A DNA stretch of 64,000 nt from Soonwooa buanensis (GTDB taxonomy: Bacteria; Bacteroidota; Bacteroidia; Flavobacteriales; Weeksellaceae): contig NZ_FUYZ01000008.1 in the NCBI RefSeq assembly GCF_900167905.1, positions 1 through 64,000 of the forward strand, written 5' to 3'. Below the pieces are notes generated by a model. It searched no databases. It was given only the letters and a program-made list of their open reading frames with translations, and had not been told where the DNA came from. The first letter of the stretch is position 1; every line of letters begins with the position of its first letter. The translations under genes and the position numbers were made by a program. Shown one piece after another: positions 2,932 through 42,545 of this stretch.

Positions 2932-3059
2932 ATATATAAGGTATATTTTTTTGAGTTAAATGAAATTATTTCGGAAGCCTAAAATTTCTATCGAAGTTCT
3001 CGATGCGTTGCGCTGTCAGAATTATTGATATGTATAAAAATAACCTGTTAGTAGTCATT

Positions 3060-3165
3060 AGCCCCGATAGAAACGGCATCCTTTTGTGGTGGAGCGAGGC
3101 GACGGAGCGCAGCGGAGTCGTCCGAGCGACACTACAAAAGATATAGTGGATAGCGGGATTGGCTC
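3060..3165 (+). ncRNA. Flavo-1-like structured repeat, copy 1
   Basis: A GC-rich element in an otherwise AT-rich spacer. It begins AGCCCCGATAGAAACGGCATCC and ends GATATAGTGGATAGCGGG. CCCG near the start can pair with CGGG near the end. An inner stem TTTTGTGGTG/CACTACAAAA encloses a GAGCG-rich tip. The same ends with a different tip recur at 8699-8780. From memory this resembles the Flavo-1 RNA family (Flavobacteriia); a covariance-model search would settle it. Strand is by analogy with copy 2. Confidence 0.55.
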
Positions 3166-8621: not shown

Positions 8622-8698
8622 CATCGTGAAATTGGGCGCGAGCGAAGCGAGCGTCAAAGCAGTATGTTGATTGTCTTATTATTACAAAACTTCAACAT

Positions 8699-8780
8699 AG
8701 CCCCGATGGAAGCGACATCCTTTTTTTGGTGGCTGAGCGGAGCCGAAGCTACCAAAAAAAGATATAGCGGACAGCGGGCG
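8699..8780 (+). ncRNA. Flavo-1-like structured repeat, copy 2
   Basis: It begins AGCCCCGATGGAAGCGACATCC and ends GATATAGCGGACAGCGGG, matching the ends of 3060-3165. The inner stem differs in sequence yet still pairs: TTTTTTTGGTGGCT with AGC(T)ACCAAAAAAA. The paired change between copies argues for selection on structure. Here it sits in the probable mnmA leader. A second GC-rich patch (GCGCGAGCGAAGCGAGCG) lies at about 8636-8653. Confidence 0.6.
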
Positions 8781-8832
8781 AGGATTTTCCTAACGAAGAG
8801 AAAATCGTCCTGCTCCTAAAATTAAAAACATT

Positions 8833-33648: not shown

Positions 33649-33727
33649 GCTCCTCCTGCTGGGCTCGAACCAGCGACCCTCTGATTAACAGTCAGATGCT
33701 CTAACCAACTGAGCTAAGGAGGAATGT
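33649..33727. repeat. attL: 79-bp direct repeat containing tRNA-Asn
   Basis: Identical to 42467-42545 over 79 bases, covering the whole tRNA-Asn plus one base on its 3' side and four on its 5' side. Outside this core the flanks diverge on the 3' side at once. On the 5' side they stay similar, with scattered differences, through the promoter. Confidence 0.9.
33650..33723 (-). tRNA. tRNA-Asn(GTT), left copy
   Basis: A 74-base cloverleaf on the minus strand: acceptor TCCTCCT/AGGAGGA, D-arm TTAGCTCAGTTGGTTAGAGC, anticodon arm CTGACTGTTAATCAG with GTT, T-arm CGCTGGTTCGAGCCCAGC, and discriminator G with no encoded CCA. It is identical to the copy at 42468. Its promoter lies inside the island and its terminator in the chromosome. 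Confidence 0.96.
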
Positions 33728-33745
33728 TCTTCGTTTGAAGTGGTG

Positions 33746-33753
33746 CAAATATA
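33746..33753 (-). promoter_or_regulatory. Promoter -7 element for the left tRNA-Asn, brought by the island
   Basis: Minus-strand TATATTTG matches TAnnTTTG, 23 bases before the tRNA. The right tRNA has the same element at the same distance, with a few differences between the two intervening stretches. Confidence 0.6.
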
Positions 33754-33886
33754 AAAATTAATTTGTTTCAAATCAAGCCAATCATGCTTTAATACAGAAA
33801 AAAATTCAAAAATTTCTTATCTGTTTGATTCTGAATTAAAAAAATTTAGATAAGTCTGTTTGATTTTGATTCCAACAGGAATTTTA

Positions 33887-33926
33887 AAACAAAAAAGACT
33901 CACATTTCTGTAAGTCTTTTAGCTCC
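33887..33926 (-). repeat. 40-bp direct repeat R2 (terminator copy inside the island)
   Basis: Identical to 33440-33479. It no longer follows a recognisable tRNA: on its upstream (right) side a GGTTCGA near 33952-33958 on the minus strand is the only tRNA-like trace. Confidence 0.8.
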
Positions 33927-34088
33927 CCATACTTTCAAATTATCGAACCAATTAATAGAAGATACAAAGAAAATCTACGAATTAAAGGGCTTTATAGCAG
34001 TTTCAAGTTTGAGCCAAATTCTGACGGCTTCGTAGAAGAACTTAGTATGCTCCTAAGATTAGTATCCAATAATAGACTTGAACCATAG
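33888..34088 (+). other. Start-less open frame in the island's left end
   Basis: The frame is open from 33888 to the TAG at 34086-34088. From about 33927 it encodes a protein-like stretch (PYFQIIEPINRRYKENL, then SMLLRLVSNNRLEP). There is no ATG near its beginning and the first 40 bases are the R2 terminator, so this may be the tail of a gene lost when the R1/R2 duplication formed. A neighbouring frame is also open for about 110 bases, so coding status is uncertain. A hairpin CTTACC/GGTAAG follows at 34098-34115. The stretch 33754-33886 holds nothing that I recognise. Confidence 0.25.
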
Positions 34089-34148
34089 AAATCAAGACTT
34101 ACCAAAAAAGGTAAGAAAGTAGAGAATGTGTAACAAAAATTTATTGTT

Positions 34149-34760
34149 ATGGATAACGAAAAAAGTTTACAAAACTTAACATTTGCAGAGCCTTTTGATA
34201 ACATACGTCATTTGCTACAAACCAACTACGTAACACACGAGGATTTATCAAAATTAAATCAACGAGAAAAGCAGTTATTGGTTTTTGAGGTTAGCCAAAG
34301 ATTAGATGAATTGGCTCGTGTTGATAGACAACAGTACATTAATGAAGCAAAAAAGTATGAGAATGTGCTTGAAGAGAAAAGCAGAAACAGAAATTGGGAT
34401 GCCAATCACATCCGAATTAAAAACTATGTTGAAGAACATTTAAAATCATACGATCGCTTGCCATCTATTACTGAAATGGCTTCCGAAATTGGACTTTCTC
34501 GGCAAACAATTTCAAAACATTTAGCAGAGTTTGAAATGGGGGATTATATGAAAGAAGAAATGCAAATGTTTAATTTAATGTTTAGTGATTTAATGGCTAC
34601 TCTCTACAATACTGCCAAAGATGGAGATGTAAGTGCTATTAAACTTTATGCAGAGATTTTGGAAAAGAGAAATGTGGGTAGTAATACAGTCAATATCAAA
34701 AACCAACAAATCAATGTAATGCTGAAAGAACTTTTTGCAAAAAATTTGAGTAATTCCTAA
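34149..34760 (+). CDS. Island HTH protein, terminase-small-subunit-like
   Basis: This 203-aa protein has a charged helical N-terminal half, then a helix-turn-helix at about 100-132 (DRLPSITEMASEIGLSRQTISKHLAEFE). A helical C-terminus (LMATLYNTAKDGDVSAIKLYAEILEKRN) resembles the phBC6A51-type proteins related to phage terminase small subunits. A DNA-binding role in the island is likely; which DNA is unknown. No terminase large subunit or other phage gene accompanies it. Confidence 0.75.
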   Translation: MDNEKSLQNLTFAEPFDNIRHLLQTNYVTHEDLSKLNQREKQLLVFEVSQRLDELARVDRQQYINEAKKYENVLEEKSRNRNWDANHIRIKNYVEEHLKSYDRLPSITEMASEIGLSRQTISKHLAEFEMGDYMKEEMQMFNLMFSDLMATLYNTAKDGDVSAIKLYAEILEKRNVGSNTVNIKNQQINVMLKELFAKNLSNS

Positions 34761-34823
34761 CTGAAAACTTGCCTTAAAAAGCTGTTAATCATAGATTTAC
34801 ACAACGATATTAAAATTAAAATA

Positions 34824-35300
34824 ATGATTAACAGAAAGTTATATACACTTGGATATGGGAATTTGTCCTTGAAGAATTTCATTGAAAATTTACAGAAAAA
34901 TGAAATCCAAGTATTAATTGACATCAGAACAAATCCAAAATCAAGATGGATGCCGGAATACAATCGAGCAAGCTTATCAGCGTCATTGCAAGAAACAGGA
35001 ATTAAATATGGCTTTCAGGGAGACTCATTAGGGGGGAAACCAAAGGATACGAATCTTTACACAAATGGTAAGTTGGATTATTTAAAAATCCGAAAAACTT
35101 TAAAATATCAGCAAGGTTTGGAATACCTCGAGAAAGGGATAGAGTTAGGACTTAGAATTGCCATTCTTTGTGCAGAGCAGGATTTTAGGGTGTGTCATCG
35201 TTATACTCTCATAGGAGAAGACTTGCACCAAAGAGGTTATGAAATTGTGCATCTTGACCCAAAAGGTGAACCTCAACCCCATCAAACAGAGCTTTTTTAA
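34824..35300 (+). CDS. DUF488 family protein
   Basis: This 158-aa protein begins LYTLGYGNLSLKNFIENL and has LIDIRTNPKSRWMPEYNRASL, GDSLGGKP, and ILCAEQDFRVCHRYTLIGEDLHQRGYEIVHL. These are the DUF488 hallmarks, with a conserved cysteine followed by CHR. DUF488 proteins are common on mobile islands and near restriction or repair genes, but no activity is established. It ends at a terminator. Confidence 0.92.
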   Translation: MINRKLYTLGYGNLSLKNFIENLQKNEIQVLIDIRTNPKSRWMPEYNRASLSASLQETGIKYGFQGDSLGGKPKDTNLYTNGKLDYLKIRKTLKYQQGLEYLEKGIELGLRIAILCAEQDFRVCHRYTLIGEDLHQRGYEIVHLDPKGEPQPHQTELF

Positions 35301-35311
35301 AGCTTTTTTTA
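35290..35311 (+). terminator. Terminator of the DUF488 gene
   Basis: AGCTTT/AAAGCT hairpin followed by TTTTTTTA, overlapping the last codons. Confidence 0.6.
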
Positions 35312-35370
35312 TTTTTCATAAAATTTAAGTCTTTTAAACATTCCTCTAAAAAAATTAAATTTCAAAGCCG

Positions 35371-36045
35371 ATGCAAAAATTCGTGGCATATTACAGAGTC
35401 AGCACACAAAAACAGGGAAATTCGGGTCTTGGATTAGAAGCACAGCGAACCGATGTAAGTAAATTCATAACGAAAGGCGGAGAACTGATTGCGGAGTTTC
35501 AGGATGTAGAGAGTGGAAAGAAAAACGACCGTCCAAACCTCATCAAAGCAATTGAGGAATGCAAAAAACAGGGAGCGACTCTACTCATTGCCAAACTCGA
35601 CCGATTGAGCCGGAATGCTTCATTTATTTTTACGCTTAAAGATGCCAAAGTGGATTTTGTTTGTTGCGATATGCCCAACGCAAATACGATTACAATCGGA
35701 ATTATGGCAGTTCTTGCACAGGACGAGAGAGAACGTATCAGCCACCGAACGAAATCGGCATTAGCAGAATTGAAAGCGAAAGGAATAAAATTGGGTACTC
35801 CCGAAAATATGACCATCGAAGCGAGAGCGAAAGGATTGGAAGCACGAAAACAAAATGCACTCCAAAACGAGAACAACCGAAAAGCAACGGCTCTTATAAT
35901 TTCGATGAAAGAAATTGGAAGAAGTTTTGCCCAAATTACAAGAGAGTTAAACGACTTAGGATTTAAAACAAGGACAGGAAAGGTATTTCAACAAAATCAG
36001 GTTCAAATTCTTTACAACAGGTATCAACACAACAATTCTATCTAA
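35371..36045 (+). CDS. Small serine recombinase (resolvase/invertase type)
   Basis: This 224-aa protein has the resolvase catalytic domain: YYRVSTQKQGNSGLGLEAQ with the nucleophile Ser11, DRLSRNASFIFTL with the catalytic Arg, and the MAVLAQDERERISHRTKSALAELKAKG long helix. A C-terminal helix-turn-helix follows (ITRELNDLGFKTRTGKVFQQNQVQILYNR). It is the resolvase size class, distinct from the two large recombinases at 38503 and 40934. It could resolve or invert DNA within the island. The structured element at 36280 follows. Confidence 0.92.
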   Translation: MQKFVAYYRVSTQKQGNSGLGLEAQRTDVSKFITKGGELIAEFQDVESGKKNDRPNLIKAIEECKKQGATLLIAKLDRLSRNASFIFTLKDAKVDFVCCDMPNANTITIGIMAVLAQDERERISHRTKSALAELKAKGIKLGTPENMTIEARAKGLEARKQNALQNENNRKATALIISMKEIGRSFAQITRELNDLGFKTRTGKVFQQNQVQILYNRYQHNNSI

Positions 36046-36279
36046 TCCTCAATAATCATTTAACGGCTCAATTTTCAATATTTAACCACTTTTTGGTCTT
36101 TCTTATACAATATCTTATCGGAGATATTTCAGTCAAATTTTGAAGTTAAAACAACGAGATTATTTTTATCAATTAATTGGAAACTATTATATTTACACGG
36201 AAATTTTTAAAATATTGAAAATAAAAAATTAAGACAATTTTATAACATATAATCAGCGTTAGCTATTATTTGAGTATCT

Positions 36280-36412
36280 CAAAATCGCCAATTTAGAAAC
36301 ACTCTACAAATAATAAGTGAACGCTCACGTTAAGGCGTGGGCTATTCTTATTTGGAGTGTGGGCGTTTGGCGATGCCTGAGAACTGATAAGCTCTTAGTC
36401 CCACGCTGTTTT
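36280..36412 (+). ncRNA. Structured element A: long hairpin with pseudoknot potential
   Basis: ATCGCCAA (36284-36291) closes with TTGGCGAT (36367-36374). Inside, ACACTC/GAGTGT and CAAATAA/TTATTTG stems extend the arm to an apical stem GCTCACG/CGTGGGC (36323-36329 with 36336-36342). A second hairpin CTGAGA/TCTTAG follows. The strand CCCACGC (36400-36406) is then the perfect complement of GCGTGGG (36335-36341), competing with or stacking on the apical stem, followed by TGTTTTTATT. It shares its closing sequences and layout with 37421-37557. The stretch 36046-36279 before it shows nothing else. Confidence 0.6.
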
Positions 36413-36475
36413 TATTAAACAAAACCAAAGTTTAATTATGCTTTTTGGGACGAAAGCAAAAAATCGTTTCAAATT

Positions 36476-37282
36476 ATGTATAAGAATTTTAAATTTTTGC
36501 TTGGTATAGCATTAGGACTATTCTCCATTATCTCCCTGCTTTCTAGTTCTTTCGTGAGTTTTGTTTTAATTCTCAGTTCCGCTTTATTGGTTTTTCCTCC
36601 TACTTGGGAGATGATAAAACCAAAAGCAGGATTTCTGAAAAATCGGATTTTGAGAATTTTGTTAGCAGGACTTATGTATGTGGTTGGTGCTACCAATTTT
36701 GTATCCAATAAAATTGATAAAAATAAATCGGAAAAAGCTACAATAGCGGAAAGCAGTAACCAAAATGCTCCGCAAACCTCAACCGAAACTGCTGCAAGTG
36801 GAGGAACTGTAAAATATGATGAGAATGGTAATAAAGCTTCGTCTGCAAATTTCGAAAGTACCTCATCTTACAAAGGATTGAAGAGTGTTAATCCTGCCGA
36901 TATTTATCTGAATTTTCAGGACAAAGGATTTACCATTGATAAGCAAATTTCTACGGACGGCTCGTTTTTCTATTGTACGAAAGAATATGGTGGAATTAAG
37001 TATGATGTTACCATTTATGCGGAAGATAATGTGAACGAGGTTACTGAGATAAAACTCAACGCCTACCGAAATCAGGCAAATCTCAACTCGGTTGAGGATA
37101 TGAAACCGTTTTTGAAATACGCCGTTTCAATCCCGTATGACGGAGCAGACGTGGAGAAAGTTCAGAATTACATTGACAAAAATTACAATAAAAACAAAGC
37201 AAGTATTACAGTCTCAGGAGTGAAGTTCACTATTTACTGTCCGTCTAAATTTGTGAGGTTGGTAACAGTGGAGAATGAGTAA
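36476..37282 (+). CDS. Membrane-anchored protein of unknown function (island cargo)
   Basis: This 268-aa protein has two or three N-terminal hydrophobic helices (about 5-45, LLGIALGLFSIISLLSSSFVSFVLILSSALLVF, and 58-76, ILRILLAGLMYVVGATNF). A low-complexity linker follows (Ser/Thr/Ala/Asn-rich, about 85-125). A compact mixed domain of about 140 residues begins NPADIYLNFQDKGFTIDKQ and holds the protein's only two cysteines. I recognise no family. It lies between structured elements A and B, starting 64 bases after A, so it may be regulated by A or carried with it as a cassette. Confidence 0.7.
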   Translation: MYKNFKFLLGIALGLFSIISLLSSSFVSFVLILSSALLVFPPTWEMIKPKAGFLKNRILRILLAGLMYVVGATNFVSNKIDKNKSEKATIAESSNQNAPQTSTETAASGGTVKYDENGNKASSANFESTSSYKGLKSVNPADIYLNFQDKGFTIDKQISTDGSFFYCTKEYGGIKYDVTIYAEDNVNEVTEIKLNAYRNQANLNSVEDMKPFLKYAVSIPYDGADVEKVQNYIDKNYNKNKASITVSGVKFTIYCPSKFVRLVTVENE

Positions 37283-37394
37283 TCTATAATTTTACAATTA
37301 CGGCAGAAAATATAAAAAAAACTAGCACATTCATTTGTATCAAATTAAAAATGAAAAACTTACGAATATTGATATGTCATTTGTAGAAAAAATA

Positions 37395-37402
37395 TAAATT
37401 TG
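37395..37402 (+). promoter_or_regulatory. Promoter -7 element just upstream of structured element B
   Basis: TAAATTTG matches TAnnTTTG. A transcript starting near 37408 would begin about 18 bases before the closing stem of element B, so B would form the 5' leader of the ParB-like gene. The rest of 37283-37394 is featureless AT-rich sequence. Confidence 0.45.
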
Positions 37403-37420
37403 CAATAGTATTCTCGCTTT

Positions 37421-37557
37421 AAGAAATCGCCAATTTCAAATTAACTACAATAACAGGAATACGGAAAAATTCTCACACGAGATAATGTGAGGATTTTCCG
37501 TATTGTTATTAGGCGTTTGGCGATGCCTTTAAAGCATACGGTTAAGTCCTCATAACA
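37421..37557 (+). ncRNA. Structured element B: same architecture as element A, different stems
   Basis: ATCGCCAA (37426-37433) closes with TTGGCGAT (37517-37524), as in element A. The arm contains AATACGGAAAAAT/ATTTTCCGTATT (37458-37470 with 37493-37504) and an apical stem CTCACA/TGTGAG (37472-37477 with 37486-37491). A short hairpin CTTTAA/TTAAG follows. The strand CCTCA (37548-37552) then complements TGAGG (37488-37492). Flanks ATCGCCAATTT and GGCGTTTGGCGATGCCT are identical in A and B, while the inner stems are unrelated in sequence but still pair. Confidence 0.6.
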
Positions 37558-37590
37558 AATAGAAAATTAAAACTTAAATTTTTGAATTTC

Positions 37591-38499
37591 ATGAGCGACA
37601 ATGACAAAAACAGTCTATTAGACACACTTAAACCCTATCCATTTCAGTTTGAGGAATTGCCTGTTGATTTAATAGAAACCGACTCAAAACAACCGAGAAA
37701 GGTTTTTGAACTTAGAGGAGGCGGAGACCTAAGTCGTCTTCTAAAATCCATTCAGCATTATGGAATTGAAGACCCGATAAAAGTGAGTAAAATTGAAGAT
37801 GGACGTTATATCATTATGGACGGGCACAGAAGATATAGTTGTGCTAGAGAACTAAAATTTGAAAAAGTGCCGTGCCGTATATATCCAAAAATGAATGATG
37901 GAGAATTTGAGGCTCGCAGATACGAAATGCAAAACAACCGTAAAGATTGGCGACCTATTGAAAGAGCAAATTCATTGCATAAAATAAGGTCTGAATACAA
38001 AAATGCCAATGAAAAGGAGATTGCTGATTTAGTAGGAATTACACAGGCTAACCTATTTCACTACACGGAATTGAGAGATACACGGCTTGAATACATATCT
38101 CTAATGGAAAGGCATAAACTAAAAGAATATCAGCAGGTCGGATTTACACGGCTGATACCTAAATTACGGAGGGTAAAACAATATCAGGTGGATGACATTA
38201 TACAAATTCTGTTTCAAAAAATTAATGACAACCTGCTATATAGGGTGTCAGACTTCACAACTCTTTCCAAAGTTTTTTCGACAGCATCGCTGAATGAGGA
38301 AGAAATTTTCAAATTCCTTTCAGACCCTCAGATTTCAACAGTAGAATTATCTGAAATGACACAGTTGTCGGGGATTTCAACCCAAATCAGAACCCTCATA
38401 AAGGATTTAGGAACAAAGAAAAATTTGGGTATTAATTTGACCGAAAAAGAACAAGTCGTATTTGAAGACTTGTATAAATTAATGCAAACATTTATGTAG
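37591..38499 (+). CDS. ParB/Spo0J-like DNA-binding protein
   Basis: I use the ATG at 37591 (MSDNDKNSLLD), giving 302 aa. The ParB N-terminal domain is clear: LIETDSKQPRKVFEL, LLKSIQHYGIEDPIKV, IIMDGHRRYSCARELKFEKVPCRIYP with the GHRR box. A helix-turn-helix follows (NEKEIADLVGITQANLFHYTELRD). There is no ParA partner. It lies 3 bases upstream of a large serine recombinase, implying one transcript and suggesting that it acts with that enzyme, for example as a site-specific accessory factor, rather than in partitioning. Confidence 0.88.
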   Translation: MSDNDKNSLLDTLKPYPFQFEELPVDLIETDSKQPRKVFELRGGGDLSRLLKSIQHYGIEDPIKVSKIEDGRYIIMDGHRRYSCARELKFEKVPCRIYPKMNDGEFEARRYEMQNNRKDWRPIERANSLHKIRSEYKNANEKEIADLVGITQANLFHYTELRDTRLEYISLMERHKLKEYQQVGFTRLIPKLRRVKQYQVDDIIQILFQKINDNLLYRVSDFTTLSKVFSTASLNEEEIFKFLSDPQISTVELSEMTQLSGISTQIRTLIKDLGTKKNLGINLTEKEQVVFEDLYKLMQTFM

Positions 38500-38502
38500 C
38501 AG

Positions 38503-39858
38503 ATGTTTGGTACTTTTGAAAAAACACCTAAAAAAGCAATAGCATATTATCGGCATTCTGCCGAAGATAAGCAGGAGAACTCTGTGGCTATCCAACGACA
38601 ACACACAGAAAAATTTGCACGTGAAAATGATATTGAGATTATCCACGAGGAGACAGACGAGGGAAAGAGCGGACTTCTTGCCACTCGTCCCGGATTTGAA
38701 AATCTGTTTGCAAATTGGGTAGAAAATCCCGAAGCCCCACAATTCGATTATGTGTTGGTTTATGATGTTTCACGTTGGGGGCGTTTCCAAAATCAAGACG
38801 AGGCGGCACACTATACTTATCGTTGCAGTATGCAAGGTAAGGAAGTTGTCTATGTTTCGAGGGGATTTTCTGACAAAACCAACCCTCTCTATTCAAGTTT
38901 GGAGACTTCACTTCACAGATATATGGCAGGAGAATATAGTCGTCAATTAAGTGCTAAGGTATTCTACGGCTGTGTAAAAGTTTCCGAGCAGGGATATTCT
39001 GCAGGTGGAACGGCAGTCTATGGAATGGCAAGACAATTATTGGATGTGAATAAAAATCCCATTCGTATTCTCAATTTAGGAGAACACAAGCAAATTGCGA
39101 ACGAAAGAGTTACTTTTACACCGAAAAATGACGAAACGACAGAAACAGTAAGAGAAATTTTTCATTTGTTCGTAAACAAAAAATATTTAATTCCTGATAT
39201 TGTCTCTTATCTCAACCGTAAGGAAATACTGTCTGCTAGCGGGAAGCGTTGGGGCTGGTCGAAAATTATAAAAATTCTGACAGATGAAACCTATATCGGA
39301 ACTCGGATTTATAACAAAACCTGGGGACGATTAAAAGAAAAATCTCACGCAAACCCTCGTTCAGAATGGGTAATTGTACCTAATGCGTTCGAGGGAATTA
39401 TTGATGAGGATTTATTTAAAAATGCACAAGAACGTTTGTATTGGATTTTACCGAGTAACTGGAGAAAAGGAATAAGAGCAAAAAATCGAGCAAGAAAATT
39501 TTTTCTCAACAATATACGTCAATGGTTGTTAAGCAAGGGAATGACACCTTTTGAGGCGGAAAAAATCATTATAGAACTCCCCATTATTTTTGCGGTTAAA
39601 CTCGAAAATAAACACCTCATTCAATGGTGCTTTCTAATATCCGAAAAAACACGGAATTTTGATGAAGTTTTGTCGATAAGCGTTACTACTGACCATAAAC
39701 AAATAATTGATGAATTTTTTCTGATTCCGACAGAAAGTTTTGCCGTTACCGATTATCTGATTTTGAATAAAAATAGTTCTACATACTATAATTGTAAAAT
39801 TGATAAAGACAAGATTGAGGAAATAATGAATCATCTTGTTAGCCAAATTAAAAAATAA
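38503..39858 (+). CDS. Large serine recombinase without zinc ribbon
   Basis: This 451-aa protein has a resolvase domain YYRHSAEDKQENSVAIQRQ with the nucleophile in RHS, VYDVSRWGRFQNQDEAAHYTY, and LETSLHRYMAGEYSRQLSAKVFYG. The recombinase domain follows (ETVREIFHLFVNKKYLIPDIVSYLNRKEI ... ILTDETYIGTRIYNK). The C-terminal 130 residues lack the usual Cys4 zinc ribbon. Translation is probably coupled to the ParB-like gene. Such proteins in tandem with another recombinase often act as co-integrases or domesticated factors; which applies here is unknown. Confidence 0.9.
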   Translation: MFGTFEKTPKKAIAYYRHSAEDKQENSVAIQRQHTEKFARENDIEIIHEETDEGKSGLLATRPGFENLFANWVENPEAPQFDYVLVYDVSRWGRFQNQDEAAHYTYRCSMQGKEVVYVSRGFSDKTNPLYSSLETSLHRYMAGEYSRQLSAKVFYGCVKVSEQGYSAGGTAVYGMARQLLDVNKNPIRILNLGEHKQIANERVTFTPKNDETTETVREIFHLFVNKKYLIPDIVSYLNRKEILSASGKRWGWSKIIKILTDETYIGTRIYNKTWGRLKEKSHANPRSEWVIVPNAFEGIIDEDLFKNAQERLYWILPSNWRKGIRAKNRARKFFLNNIRQWLLSKGMTPFEAEKIIIELPIIFAVKLENKHLIQWCFLISEKTRNFDEVLSISVTTDHKQIIDEFFLIPTESFAVTDYLILNKNSSTYYNCKIDKDKIEEIMNHLVSQIKK

Positions 39859-39860
39859 TT

Positions 39861-39914
39861 ACTTACATCGGTGTAATTTTCATATCTTTACAAAAAAATT
39901 ACATCAACGTAAGT
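39861..39914 (+). promoter_or_regulatory. Paired palindromic operators around the MerR-like gene's promoter
   Basis: Two 20-base arms, 39861-39880 and 39895-39914, are inverted copies of each other (17 of 20 match). Each contains its own palindrome, TTACATCGGTGTAA and TTACATCAACGTAA. Between them lies TATCTTTA, one base off the -7 consensus TAnnTTTG. The gene with the MerR-like HTH starts at 39917, so autoregulation is the obvious reading. Confidence 0.55.
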
Positions 39915-39916
39915 TT

Positions 39917-40750
39917 ATGGAAAAAGAAAAATTTTTACCGCTCGAAACCTTAGGAGGAATATATCAGATAGCCAAGGAAAAAGAGTTCTACTCCGCTTTC
40001 AGTCAGTATATCCACTCGAAAGAGAATGACTATTTGTGGGCATATTTTAACGATAAGAAATATAGAATATCGGATAATCTCATATCCTATCGCATTGCGA
40101 ACCATTGGGAGAAAGAAAGTATTTTGGATGTTAAGCAAAGCGACGGAGGATGGAGAAAATATAGCCTTATGGATGTTATTTGGCTTATTATAATTAAAGA
40201 ACTTCGTCATTTCGGATTAGGGCTCGAAGAAATAAGAAAAGTAAAAAAAACACTTACTGCGAGTTATGAGCAATGCGAATACGGCGAACTCGAATTTTAC
40301 ACAGCGTTGGCTTATATAAACAAAACACCTGTTTCAATACTTGTTTTTTCGGATTTTAGAGCAGAAGTAGCAACAGTTTATGAAGTAATTGGAAGTTCGG
40401 ATACATACGGAATTTTAAATCATATCAAAATCGACCTCAACCAAATTTTACAAAATATTTTCCCTGAGAAAAATTTTAAGCCCATATATCAAAATTTTAT
40501 TGAAATCTCTGATGAACAAAAAATGATATGGGAGAAAATTAAAGAAAAAGAAGTGGAGGAAATTACGGTTTCAGTAAAAAATGGTGTCCCTGTAAGTATG
40601 ATTTATACTGTGAGCGAGCCTACGAATAGTAACGTAGGGCAACTCAAAAACAAAAATGCTTTCCAAAGTATTACACATACTCAGCATAAAGGAAAAACCA
40701 TCGCAGTTAAACGTACAGTATCAAAAAAATTTAAAAGTGATGAAGAATAA
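39917..40750 (+). CDS. MerR-like HTH regulator of the island
   Basis: With the start at 39917 (MEKEKFLPLE) the protein has 277 aa; 27 upstream residues from 39836 would read through the operator. A winged-HTH of MerR type is at about 45-110 (YRISDNLISYRIANHWEKE, GGWRKYSLMDVIWLIIIKELRHFGLGLEEIRKVKKTL). The C-terminal 160 residues are not recognisable as a known effector domain and end in a basic tail (KGKTIAVKRTVSKKFKSDEE). The operator pair directly upstream supports autoregulation, possibly coupled to excision control. Confidence 0.75.
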   Translation: MEKEKFLPLETLGGIYQIAKEKEFYSAFSQYIHSKENDYLWAYFNDKKYRISDNLISYRIANHWEKESILDVKQSDGGWRKYSLMDVIWLIIIKELRHFGLGLEEIRKVKKTLTASYEQCEYGELEFYTALAYINKTPVSILVFSDFRAEVATVYEVIGSSDTYGILNHIKIDLNQILQNIFPEKNFKPIYQNFIEISDEQKMIWEKIKEKEVEEITVSVKNGVPVSMIYTVSEPTNSNVGQLKNKNAFQSITHTQHKGKTIAVKRTVSKKFKSDEE

Positions 40751-40821
40751 TATCATACATTCACAGTCCACACCGAAAGCCCTATCAGTAGCACTGAACG
40801 GCTTCACTACGATAATAAGCT

Positions 40822-40998
40822 ATGCTTTCCATCGAAAAGTGCCGTCAGAAAATCAACCAAGGAAGTCTGAAATTTGGAGAACAAGAAACTCAGTTATTAA
40901 GAATGCTATGTTATAAACTTGCCCAAATAGAATATGAAAACTTCAAAAAACTACAAGGAAAGAAACGTAGTCATCTACACAAGGGTATCGACAGATGA
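40822..40998 (+). CDS. 58-aa ORF overlapping the integrase start
   Basis: A frame of 58 codons runs from ATG at 40822 to TGA at 40996-40998. It overlaps the first 65 bases of the integrase gene in another frame. The protein has a regular helical pattern (FGEQETQLLRMLCYKLAQIEYENFKKLQ) ending in LHKGIDR. From memory, similar short ORFs ending in H-x-GIDR precede serine recombinases on Bacteroidota elements. Overlap suggests translational coupling. Alternative frames here (40740-40916) look less protein-like. Confidence 0.6.
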   Translation: MLSIEKCRQKINQGSLKFGEQETQLLRMLCYKLAQIEYENFKKLQGKKRSHLHKGIDR

Positions 40999-42502
40999 AC
41001 AAAAAGAGAATGGGTTCAGTCTGCAAGACCAATACGCAAAGCTTGTTAAGCATTGTGAAAGAGGTAATTTTAATATTCTTGCACATTATCAGGATGACCA
41101 TTCTGCCAAAAATTTTAATCGTCCAAGTTTCAATGCTTTCTTGGAAGACGTAAAGTCTAAGAAAATAAAGCCCGACATGTTTCTTTGTGTCCGTCCTGAC
41201 AGATTTTCGAGAAATCTTGAAAATACTTTGTCAATGCTAACCAAGTTCAGAAAATTTGGAATTGAATTTAGAACACTTGAAAATCATACAGATTTGGATA
41301 GCCCCGAAAGTTTACTACCATTCATAGTGAATAATTTATTACCTCAAATAGATAATGAAAGAAAAGGTCTAAATACGAAGCAATGTATGCGTCAGGCAAT
41401 GAGGGAGGGAAGAACAATGGGACGACCTCCTGTCGGCTATATGAATGACAAAATAAATAAAACCATTGTTCTGCATCCGACCAATGCTCCACTAATAAAA
41501 AAAGGTTTTGAACTGTTGTCAGGCGGAGTGTATTCCATAGAAGAGGTTAGGCAAATGTTGATTAAAGACGGTTTAAGAAACTGCTGTAAACAAAACTTCT
41601 TATATACTGTCAAAAATCCGTATTACTACGGACTTATTAAAATTCCTGCTTGGAAAGATGAGCCGGAAATGGAGGTAATCGGCTTACACGAGCCATTGAT
41701 TAGTAGAGAAGTATTCGATGAAGTTCAGGATATAATTTCGGGTAGAAAGAAAAATACGCCAAGCAAACTAACACGAAAAGACGAACTTCCTCTGAGGGGG
41801 CATTTGAGTTGTCAAAGATGTGGTGGAAAATTAACAGGTAGTCGCTCTACAAGTAGGAATGGTTCAAGAATTTTTTACTACCATTGTCAGAAAGGTTGTA
41901 AGGAACGTTTCAGAGCCGATGCTTCTAATGAGTCATTTGAGGAATTTCTCGGTTCTTTTGTGATTTCTGAGCAGGTTCTTGGTTTATATATTGAGATTCT
42001 CAAAGATGTTTTCGGACAAGGAGAAGTCGAAAGAAATCGACAACTCAAAATTATTGACGATAACATTGAAAAAGTAAAAAGTCGGCTGTATAATTTAGAG
42101 AACAACTTTTTGGATGAAAAAATTGATGTTCAGGATTATCAGGGAATGAAGAGGAGATTACAGAGTGAAATTGAAGAATTGGGAGACAGAAAGGAGGAAT
42201 TTACTATCGAAAAAACTGATTTGGAAAAATATTTTGAATATGGCTCTGCGTTCTTGTATGATATGAAAAAGTATTATCGGGAAGCACCGTTAGAAATTAA
42301 ACAAAAAATTGTTGGTTCGATATTTCCTGAAAATTTAGTTTTCTCCGAAAATAAATATCGAACCACCCAAATTAATAAGTTACTTAAAATTTTAACCTTA
42401 AATATCAACGGATTAGGAGAAATAAAAAAAGGACAAGAAGATAAAAATATCAACTTGTCCAATATGGCTCCTCCTGCTGGGCTCGAACCAGCGACCCTCT
42501 GA
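40934..42502 (+). CDS. Large serine integrase of the island
   Basis: This 522-aa large serine recombinase has IYTRVSTDEQKENGFSLQDQ (nucleophile Ser), CVRPDRFSRNLENTL and the recombinase domain (TMGRPPVGYMND ... NPYYYGLIKIPAW). The zinc ribbon is LSCQRCGGKLTG ... YHCQKGC, and a coiled-coil (about 365-440) follows. It is adjacent to attR and is the best candidate for integration at tRNA-Asn. The last 12 residues, MAPPAGLEPATL, are encoded by the antisense of the tRNA inside attR, so the C-terminus changes between integrated and excised forms. Confidence 0.93.
   Translation: MKTSKNYKERNVVIYTRVSTDEQKENGFSLQDQYAKLVKHCERGNFNILAHYQDDHSAKNFNRPSFNAFLEDVKSKKIKPDMFLCVRPDRFSRNLENTLSMLTKFRKFGIEFRTLENHTDLDSPESLLPFIVNNLLPQIDNERKGLNTKQCMRQAMREGRTMGRPPVGYMNDKINKTIVLHPTNAPLIKKGFELLSGGVYSIEEVRQMLIKDGLRNCCKQNFLYTVKNPYYYGLIKIPAWKDEPEMEVIGLHEPLISREVFDEVQDIISGRKKNTPSKLTRKDELPLRGHLSCQRCGGKLTGSRSTSRNGSRIFYYHCQKGCKERFRADASNESFEEFLGSFVISEQVLGLYIEILKDVFGQGEVERNRQLKIIDDNIEKVKSRLYNLENNFLDEKIDVQDYQGMKRRLQSEIEELGDRKEEFTIEKTDLEKYFEYGSAFLYDMKKYYREAPLEIKQKIVGSIFPENLVFSENKYRTTQINKLLKILTLNINGLGEIKKGQEDKNINLSNMAPPAGLEPATL
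42424..42460 (-). terminator. Terminator of the right tRNA-Asn, inside the integrase gene
   Basis: On the minus strand the stem GGACAAG/CTTGTCC is followed by TTTTTTTATTT, starting 7 bases after the tRNA 3' end. It is island sequence and also codes for the integrase's final residues on the other strand. Confidence 0.75.
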
Positions 42503-42545
42503 TTAACAGTCAGATGCTCTAACCAACTGAGCTAAGGAGGAATGT
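42467..42545. repeat. attR: 79-bp direct repeat containing tRNA-Asn
   Basis: Identical to 33649-33727. The island's integrase ends within it. Confidence 0.9.
42468..42541 (-). tRNA. tRNA-Asn(GTT), right copy
   Basis: A 74-base cloverleaf identical to 33650-33723, anticodon GTT, no encoded CCA. Its promoter is chromosomal and its terminator belongs to the island, the reverse of the left copy. Confidence 0.96.

Follow-up and report, generated by a model that had tools for sequence, protein, structure and literature searches.

Pseudoknotted riboswitches such as SAM-II and preQ1 carry an expression platform, and integron attC sites conserve their structure while the sequence of their stems varies. 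Among Bacteroidetes, trp-type attenuation is exemplified by Bacteroid-trp RNA (PMC6414381). Wider inventories comprise 3161 structured-RNA candidates of human microbiomes, several of them from Bacteroidetes (PMC8040213), and 64 structured 5′ regions in Flavobacterium psychrophilum (PMC9723704). The systems that most resemble the locus described here are the trp-type attenuators, the pseudoknotted riboswitches, Flavo-1 RNA (RF01705), and attC sites.

The locus lies in a 64,000-nucleotide stretch of the Soonwooa buanensis genome (contig NZ_FUYZ01000008.1, positions 1 to 64,000), termed the window, and holds two structured elements, denoted A (36255–36413, from the hairpin P0 to the U-tract) and B (37408–37554). 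Both almost certainly belong to a large Bacteroidota family of 5′ leader RNAs that act in cis. The best explanation overall, to which we assign a probability of roughly 0.6, is that each leader would be a transcription attenuator, pseudoknotted and built of four strands, that controls accessory genes. The family is present in roughly one in six sampled Bacteroidota genomes, with 81 matches in one of them, yet it has no model in Rfam 15. The initial annotation recognized no known family, and Rfam 15 indeed gave no threshold match on any element in the window or in 31 element-holding loci. Two hits on A, JA01 (21.1 bits against a threshold of 111) and, on the other strand, mir-627 (16.7 bits against 86), were rejected as chance matches, and a below-threshold scan of nine loci gave no match overlapping an element. 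No description of this architecture was found in the open-licence literature searched, which took in parts of PMC9723704, PMC8040213, and PMC6414381, and none of the matches listed by a full-text search for sequence motifs looks related. The candidates in the covered part of PMC8040213 are set apart by description, not by sequence, none being described with this architecture; the lists of PMC8040213 or PMC9723704 may contain parts of the family.

As in a trp-type attenuator, four strands pairing 1:2, 2:3, and 3:4 lie between promoter and gene, the last followed in most members by a U-tract that by eye often begins a few nt away, and the mutually exclusive pairings 1:2/3:4 versus 2:3 are found in the family. 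The family differs in that its strands are separated by the helices P1, P2, and P3a, which tie the loops together; moreover, no amino-acid operon is seen, nearly all helix sequences differ between members, and no Rfam match reaches its threshold. With SAM-II and preQ1 it shares a compact pseudoknot core (P2/P5) and A- or U-rich joining strands, followed by a switching arm and a terminator-like end, but the helices of the family are hypervariable and its downstream genes share no pathway. Flavo-1 is likewise an orphan structured flavobacterial RNA with two copies in this window (3056–3164 and 8695–8785), but A and B do not score as Flavo-1. The attC sites, by general description, also keep a structure with variable stem sequence, whereas the family has a promoter and a T-tract and stands as single copies before genes.

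Both elements were recovered where the initial annotation had placed them, on the plus strand ahead of a gene, with the start codon 64 nt (A, ATG 36476) or 32 nt (B, ATG 37591) past the end of the model match. Folding of A and B is better than in 200 of 200 dinucleotide shuffles (four folding windows tested, z −4.15 to −8.08), and the earlier description of the apical stems and tail strands is confirmed. The shared ends are exact, AAATCGCCAATTT at 36282 and 37424 and TTTGGCGATGCCT at 36366 and 37516, and each remaining match to these patterns in a scan of the window has 2–3 mismatches. They had been treated as ends only, whereas together they constitute the helix P2, which is common to A and B though its sequence differs in other members. 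The earlier reading is also to be corrected by a further variable helix, P1, outside P2, and had missed a strand upstream of P1 that pairs into the arm. The features are as follows.

36255–36264, plus strand: P0 hairpin of A, AGCGTTAGCT, 5′ of the leader strand (sequence; GCGTT matches in the family)
36264–36272, plus strand: strand 1 (leader) of A, TATTATTTG, complementary to strand 2 (by eye; A is outside the 118-member test)
36277–36281 and 36378–36382, plus strand: P1 of A, TCTCA/TGAGA (sequence, folding, P1 covariation)
36284–36291 and 36367–36374, plus strand: P2 of A, ATCGCCAA/TTGGCGAT (sequence, folding, covariation)
36299–36360, plus strand: whole arm of A (sequence, folding, covariation)
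36299–36304 and 36355–36360, plus strand: P3a in the arm of A, ACACTC/GAGTGT
36307–36315, plus strand: strand 2 in the arm of A, CAAATAATA
36323–36329 and 36336–36342, plus strand: P4 in the arm of A, GCTCACG/CGTGGGC
36335–36351, plus strand: strand 3 in the arm of A
36387–36406, plus strand: strand 4 (tail) of A, ATAAGCTCTTAGTCCCACGC, complementary to strand 3 (sequence; family-wide pairing)
36407–36413, plus strand: T-tract of A after the tail, TGTTTTT (sequence)
36446–36451, plus strand: TGGGAC ahead of the start codon, can pair with tail GTCCCA of A (P6; by eye)
36476–37282, plus strand: gene led by A, encoding a 268-aa protein that by eye is hydrophobic in its N-terminal part
37395–37402, plus strand: promoter box of B, TAAATTTG (TAnnTTTG), directly 5′ of the leader strand (sequence; family-wide test)
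37408–37414, plus strand: strand 1 (leader) of B, GTATTCT, pairs with strand 2 GGAATAC at 37456–37462 (strand-pairing test)
37416–37535, plus strand: core of B (sequence, folding, strand-pairing test)
37416–37422 and 37529–37535, plus strand: P1 of B, GCTTTAA/TTAAAGC
37426–37433 and 37517–37524, plus strand: P2 of B
37472–37477 and 37486–37491, plus strand: P4 in the arm of B, CTCACA/TGTGAG
37544–37554, plus strand: strand 4 (tail) of B, AAGTCCTCATA, pairs with TGTGAGGATTT at 37486–37496
37591–38499, plus strand: gene led by B, ParB-like protein (ORF listed from TTG 37582)

Element A is a normal member, scoring 116.5 bits with the model denoted R2; B is weaker, at 77.4 bits, its match being truncated at the model's 3′ end. 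The 268-aa protein led by A has no match in Pfam, PHROGs, or NCBIfam.

From 5′ to 3′, members are composed of the promoter, P0, leader strand 1, the 5′ strand of P1, an A-run, the 5′ strand of P2, a U-rich strand, the 5′ strand of P3a, strand 2, and P4; these are followed by strand 3, the 3′ strand of P3a, the 5′ strand of P5 (GGN), the 3′ strand of P2, the 3′ strand of P5 (NCC), the 3′ strand of P1, tail strand 4, and the T-tract. Beyond the T-tract, a GGGAC-like motif precedes the start codon. Covariation was counted in an alignment (A4) of 102 rows, one of which is an antisense shadow (L027 +); from the 139-element set, antisense shadows (4 + 3) had been removed beforehand. Because P1, P2, and P4 were built into the model that produced it, the alignment is biased in favor of these helices, in which 97.1% of cells are standard pairs. 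Both sides changed in 602 of their cells, compared with 164 in shuffles and 81–114 in slid controls, and such changes occur at 16 of the 16 pairs of P1 and P2. There is no G.U cell in P2 in the 102 rows, and P4 has a U.G wobble conserved in 84 of them. Strand 3:4 and P5, absent from the model that made the alignment, are 96.0% paired with 44 both-side cells against 11 in shuffles. Fourteen of these cells are in strand 3:4 and 30 in one P5 pair, the only column pair with P5 covariation, where 16 rows are unpaired and 25 gapped. Strand 3:4 alone is paired in 96–98% of cells, mostly by Watson–Crick pairs.

A cross-sequence test compared the pairing of each member's own strands with the median for swapped strands. 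It parsed 134 of the 139 elements and kept 118 after removal of near-duplicates, with element A and L063 not included. Own pairing exceeded the median in 118/118 for both P1 and P2, a score that is built in because the 118 members were chosen for paired P1 and P2 and the strands picked by complementarity; the covariation count is the better test of these helices. The arm pairing 2:3 scored 113/118, strand 1:2 100/118, P5 and P6 86/118 each, and 3:4 62/118, with two control strand pairs at 53/118 and 60/118. The flat result for 3:4 is explained by a mostly invariant helix, and its variants still pair in L026, L033, L060, L119, L123, and element B. Upstream, 84 GCGTT matches were found at −20 to −11 from P1 in 116 members, and a P0 hairpin of at least 4 bp is present in 80%, a modest excess over the 56% in shuffles. 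A counter-example to the common architecture is seen in the phage copies L063 and L068, where the P1 strands are unpaired and the rest is intact (L063 element, 2292–2433). This is possibly a recombinant or decaying copy, and L063, whose 5′ half is like that of L049, may be recombinant.

Of 116 members, 77 carry the Bacteroidota promoter box TAnnTTTG (PMC6414381) between −105 and −30 relative to P1; the 60 shuffles average 8.8 (sd 2.8), and the opposite strand gives 6. After the tail, the T fraction is 0.49–0.85 at each of 11 positions, and 102 of the 116 have TTTT no more than 14 nt past the tail. In 117 of 122 members (the 139 minus 16 with too little downstream DNA and one without an ORF, near-duplicates kept), the next ORF, called mechanically, has the same orientation as the element. 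It starts 43–59 nt past the model end in 64/122 and within 150 nt in 98/122, while upstream ORFs are neutral in orientation (57 plus, 59 minus). The conserved P4 wobble and the arrangement of promoter and T-tract point to an RNA rather than a DNA element. Judged from these signals, the family is transcribed and is a leader RNA, with a promoter upstream and a same-strand gene closely downstream.

In the proposed mechanism, strand 1 is the leader, strands 2 and 3 are the 5′ and 3′ sides of the arm, and strand 4 is the tail plus U-tract. In one state, 2:3 would serve as an antiterminator nested inside P1/P2/P3a. In the other, 1:2 and 3:4 would form, both of which are excluded by 2:3, and 3:4 with the U-tract would be an intrinsic terminator. 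P1, P2, and P3a can persist in both states and in the second would join the loops of the two hairpins, a persistence that is new relative to the logic of the trp attenuator. The 3′ strand of P2, which sits in the loop of the small hairpin P5 (GGN..NCC), would probably form the core that senses the signal. When transcription reads through, the tail could pair instead with GGGAC ahead of the start codon (P6); the position of P6 beyond the terminator suggests that translational control may be added. Mean duplex energies in the 118 members are −22.1 (2:3), −6.7 (1:2), and −17.6 (3:4) kcal/mol, as crude duplex sums with pseudoknot terms left out. On this basis the state difference is −2.2 kcal/mol (sd 5.0), within 5 kcal/mol in 64% of the 118, and the two states are near balance. 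The P4 wobble weakens 2:3, whereas 3:4 is mostly Watson–Crick. Transcription and structure are supported by the sequence evidence; termination, read-through, and any ligand are inferred. If the leaders do work in this way, a single switch at the RNA level would serve many accessory genes of the phylum, and one could look for the signal to which it responds.

A leader acting mainly on translation or mRNA stability is a plausible minority reading, in which the T-rich stretch would be an unstructured landing site instead of a terminator. Tentatively to the same degree, the tail GTCCC would close the start by pairing with GGGAC ahead of the start codon (P6), or would free it when held by strand 3. 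The own-pairing excess of P6 and the tight start-codon spacing given above favor this reading. So do many T-tracts that by eye begin a few nt past the stem, a placement ill suited to intrinsic termination, and the case of B, where no T-tract follows the tail and the tail's CTCAT might also base-pair to the start-codon ATGAG (5 nt, by eye only). TTTT is missing within 14 nt of the tail in 14 of 116 members, which counts against an attenuator. However, an 11-nt T-rich stretch after a GC-rich helix has the look of an intrinsic terminator, and the start-codon spacing is lost in the 81-match genome described below. It is improbable that each element is a separate small RNA gene acting in trans, with the gene behind it only a neighbor. 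Its own promoter, terminator-like 3′ end, and 81 matches in one genome would fit such a gene, but the same-strand next ORF and the sharp 43–59 nt spacing, set beside neutral upstream ORFs, would not. A dispersed hairpin repeat without function would account for the multicopy, near-palindromic character of the elements (seen in their antisense matches) and is scarcely credible in view of the compensatory change at every P1 and P2 pair, the promoter, the orientation, and the spacing.

The initial annotation had also entertained a folded single-strand recombination site flanking a cassette (36413–37420), and in this form, with A and B bounding a gene cassette as folded DNA of the attC or IS200/IS605 type, the reading is very improbable. 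Its attractions are that structure is kept while sequence changes, that P2 lacks G.U cells in the 102 rows, that genes differ right behind the near-identical elements of L049 and L063, and that P1, P2, and P3a reassort between copies of the 81-match genome. The L049/L063 likeness and the G.U-poor P2 are equally explained by homologous recombination and strict pairing. Against it are the RNA signals (promoters, T-tract, and conserved P4 wobble) and the spacing of matches, as by eye the genome match lists hold no same-strand pair closer than about 8 kb except A/B, and no arrays. Among the context matches listed, no recurrent recombinase was seen beside the elements (by eye). The comparison with related islands that had been proposed gave six relatives of the ParB-recombinase module without a model match ahead of ParB (in one, only the C-terminal part of ParB aligns), which makes the link of B to ParB a local one. 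The ParB occurs in 7 of 316 genomes, the window's own among them, and on the island relatives so identified the recombination site was rejected as the main reading.

The regulatory RNA family, which had been the competing proposal, is supported by many compensating homologues, promoters, fixed orientation and spacing to the gene, and the lack of an Rfam threshold match. Its placement in mobile islands holds for A and B and is otherwise too narrow, given that copies occur in other settings: three more in the same genome, others on phage-like viral contigs, and others ahead of SusC-like genes (by eye) and a large FISUMP-type family. The covariance-model search suggested at the outset found many further homologues with compensatory changes. 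The shared-end pattern is present in 9 of 320 genomes of the host's family, own genome included. Viral contigs gave 53 stretches, of which 13 were accepted by a longer end motif, near-duplicate pairs L024/L058 and L063/L068 included, and the rest were taken as chance; L048 and L069 pass the longer motif and were rejected as members, their other helices missing. With a cut-off of E ≤ 1e-3, model R1, built from 18 members, matched 54 of the 295 genomes sampled from the class, and many of the members found have another P2 sequence that is still paired (CCGCGAA/TTCGCGG, CTGGTAA/TACCAG, CGACCAA/TTGGTCG etc.). The conserved P4-tail pattern is found in named genomes in at least 119 stretches and at least 80 loci, by title all but three Bacteroidota; 77 of 80 such loci carry a model match, the others being L177, L190, and L210. 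The second model, R2, found five copies in the window's genome and, across the phylum, matched 43 of 296 genomes, of which 12 lie outside the class. The control took 199 genomes from the phylum to which a Lachnospiraceae MAG belongs; 198 had no match, and the sole match, in the search-centre MAG itself, is probably a misplaced contig. Searched with the model, a MAG that bears the title Fibrobacter gave 5 matches and one from Myxococcota gave none; no match was found for one element region in phage records or for element A in plasmid records.

The first downstream protein was scanned for 97 of 102 members (L010, L181, L202, L214, and L218 left out). These 97 proteins contain 82 Pfam families, some proteins having several and some none, most commonly type IX secretion tails (9), laminin-G-like (6), HSDR_N (3), sigma-70 (3), HlyD (3), and RHS (3). 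No common pathway was found among them with Pfam, which is unlike a metabolite riboswitch. The controlled genes look accessory, comprising secreted or surface proteins, restriction-modification, RHS, sigma factors, SusC-like proteins, and phage cargo. Several genomes from the host's family, order, and class have the element ahead of SusC-like or sigma-factor genes (by eye, among the matches listed), and on phage-like contigs it lies after apparent lysis genes and ahead of variable genes (roles by eye). Six leaders before SusC-like or sigma-factor genes (L113, L137, L139, L145, L147, L148) have a divergent small HTH-like gene about 135–170 nt upstream (by eye). The phage-like L049 and L063 have in common a 450-nt stretch with the element that is 91% alike, and different genes follow; here the element may be a homology anchor for cargo exchange.

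The 81 matches are in a Dysgonamonadaceae MAG (G867, isolate Cc175_bin72), where three are antisense shadows of stronger ones and one is a contig-end fragment. Forty-two copies were read. Between P0 and the tail, mean identity over their 114 non-stem columns is 92%, and downstream identity is 86% in the first 60 nt and 77% (median 83%) in the next 190 nt. The stem strands are 41–58% identical (P1 42 and 46, P2 57 and 58, P3a 41 and 41) and yet are paired, with 33, 16, and 40 distinct 5′ strands in P1, P2, and P3a and 41 distinct triples. Turnover is thus faster in the stems than in the sequence around them, scaffold and flanks being far more identical. G.U cells number 26 of 376 in P1, 1 of 307 in P2, and 59 of 467 in P3a, in helices picked by best complementarity, so that mismatches are under-counted. 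The stems reassort, 11 of the 13 copy pairs that share P1 sharing neither P2 nor P3a. The G867 copies show no avoidance of shared stems: identical-stem pairs are commoner than with shuffled columns (P1 13 vs 4.5, P2 74 vs 11.5, P3a 7 vs 1.2), an excess that does not support selection for stems differing between copies. Rapid stem renewal is seen; selection for separateness is not. The genome is a natural mutational scan of a near-fixed scaffold with three stems varied and compensated.

Nine G867 copies were read together with a full-length gene, and these genes resemble one another, apparently forming a single secreted family. Three of them were scanned: one exceeds the FISUMP cut-offs of both NCBIfam and Pfam, another falls short of them, and the third has a weak match in Pfam only. 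In these nine copies the FISUMP-type gene starts 318–870 nt past the element, and the fixed lead is therefore not universal. Many contigs of this MAG (L298–L337) end a few hundred bases past an element, a pattern that would arise if assembly failed at the repeated leader and gene start. An extension of the attenuator, distinctly unlikely on present evidence, is that a bistable RNA class would use the helices joining its two loops as exchangeable, rapidly renewed “barcodes” on one switching scaffold. It is just as speculative that each leader would address itself, in cis, through its own terminated fragment, or through an antisense RNA, and not its siblings. If true, a genome could hold dozens of separately addressable switch copies for surface-protein families and newly acquired genes.

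In the window, A and B lie in an island between two tRNA-Asn copies, 79 nt identical (33649–33727 and 42467–42545), that contains three serine recombinase genes and the ParB-like gene. Both tRNA-Asn genes of the island (33649–42545) are complete, and the last recombinase ORF (40934–42502) ends inside the second tRNA copy. At 37582–39858 the ParB-like gene is followed directly by a large serine recombinase. The pair recurs in the six related genomes at 51–62% and 54–67% protein identity, and the window's upstream genes are absent there in the stretches compared. A DUF488 protein (34824–35300) is encoded in the island between a helix-turn-helix gene, with a weak terminase-small-subunit match, and a serine recombinase.
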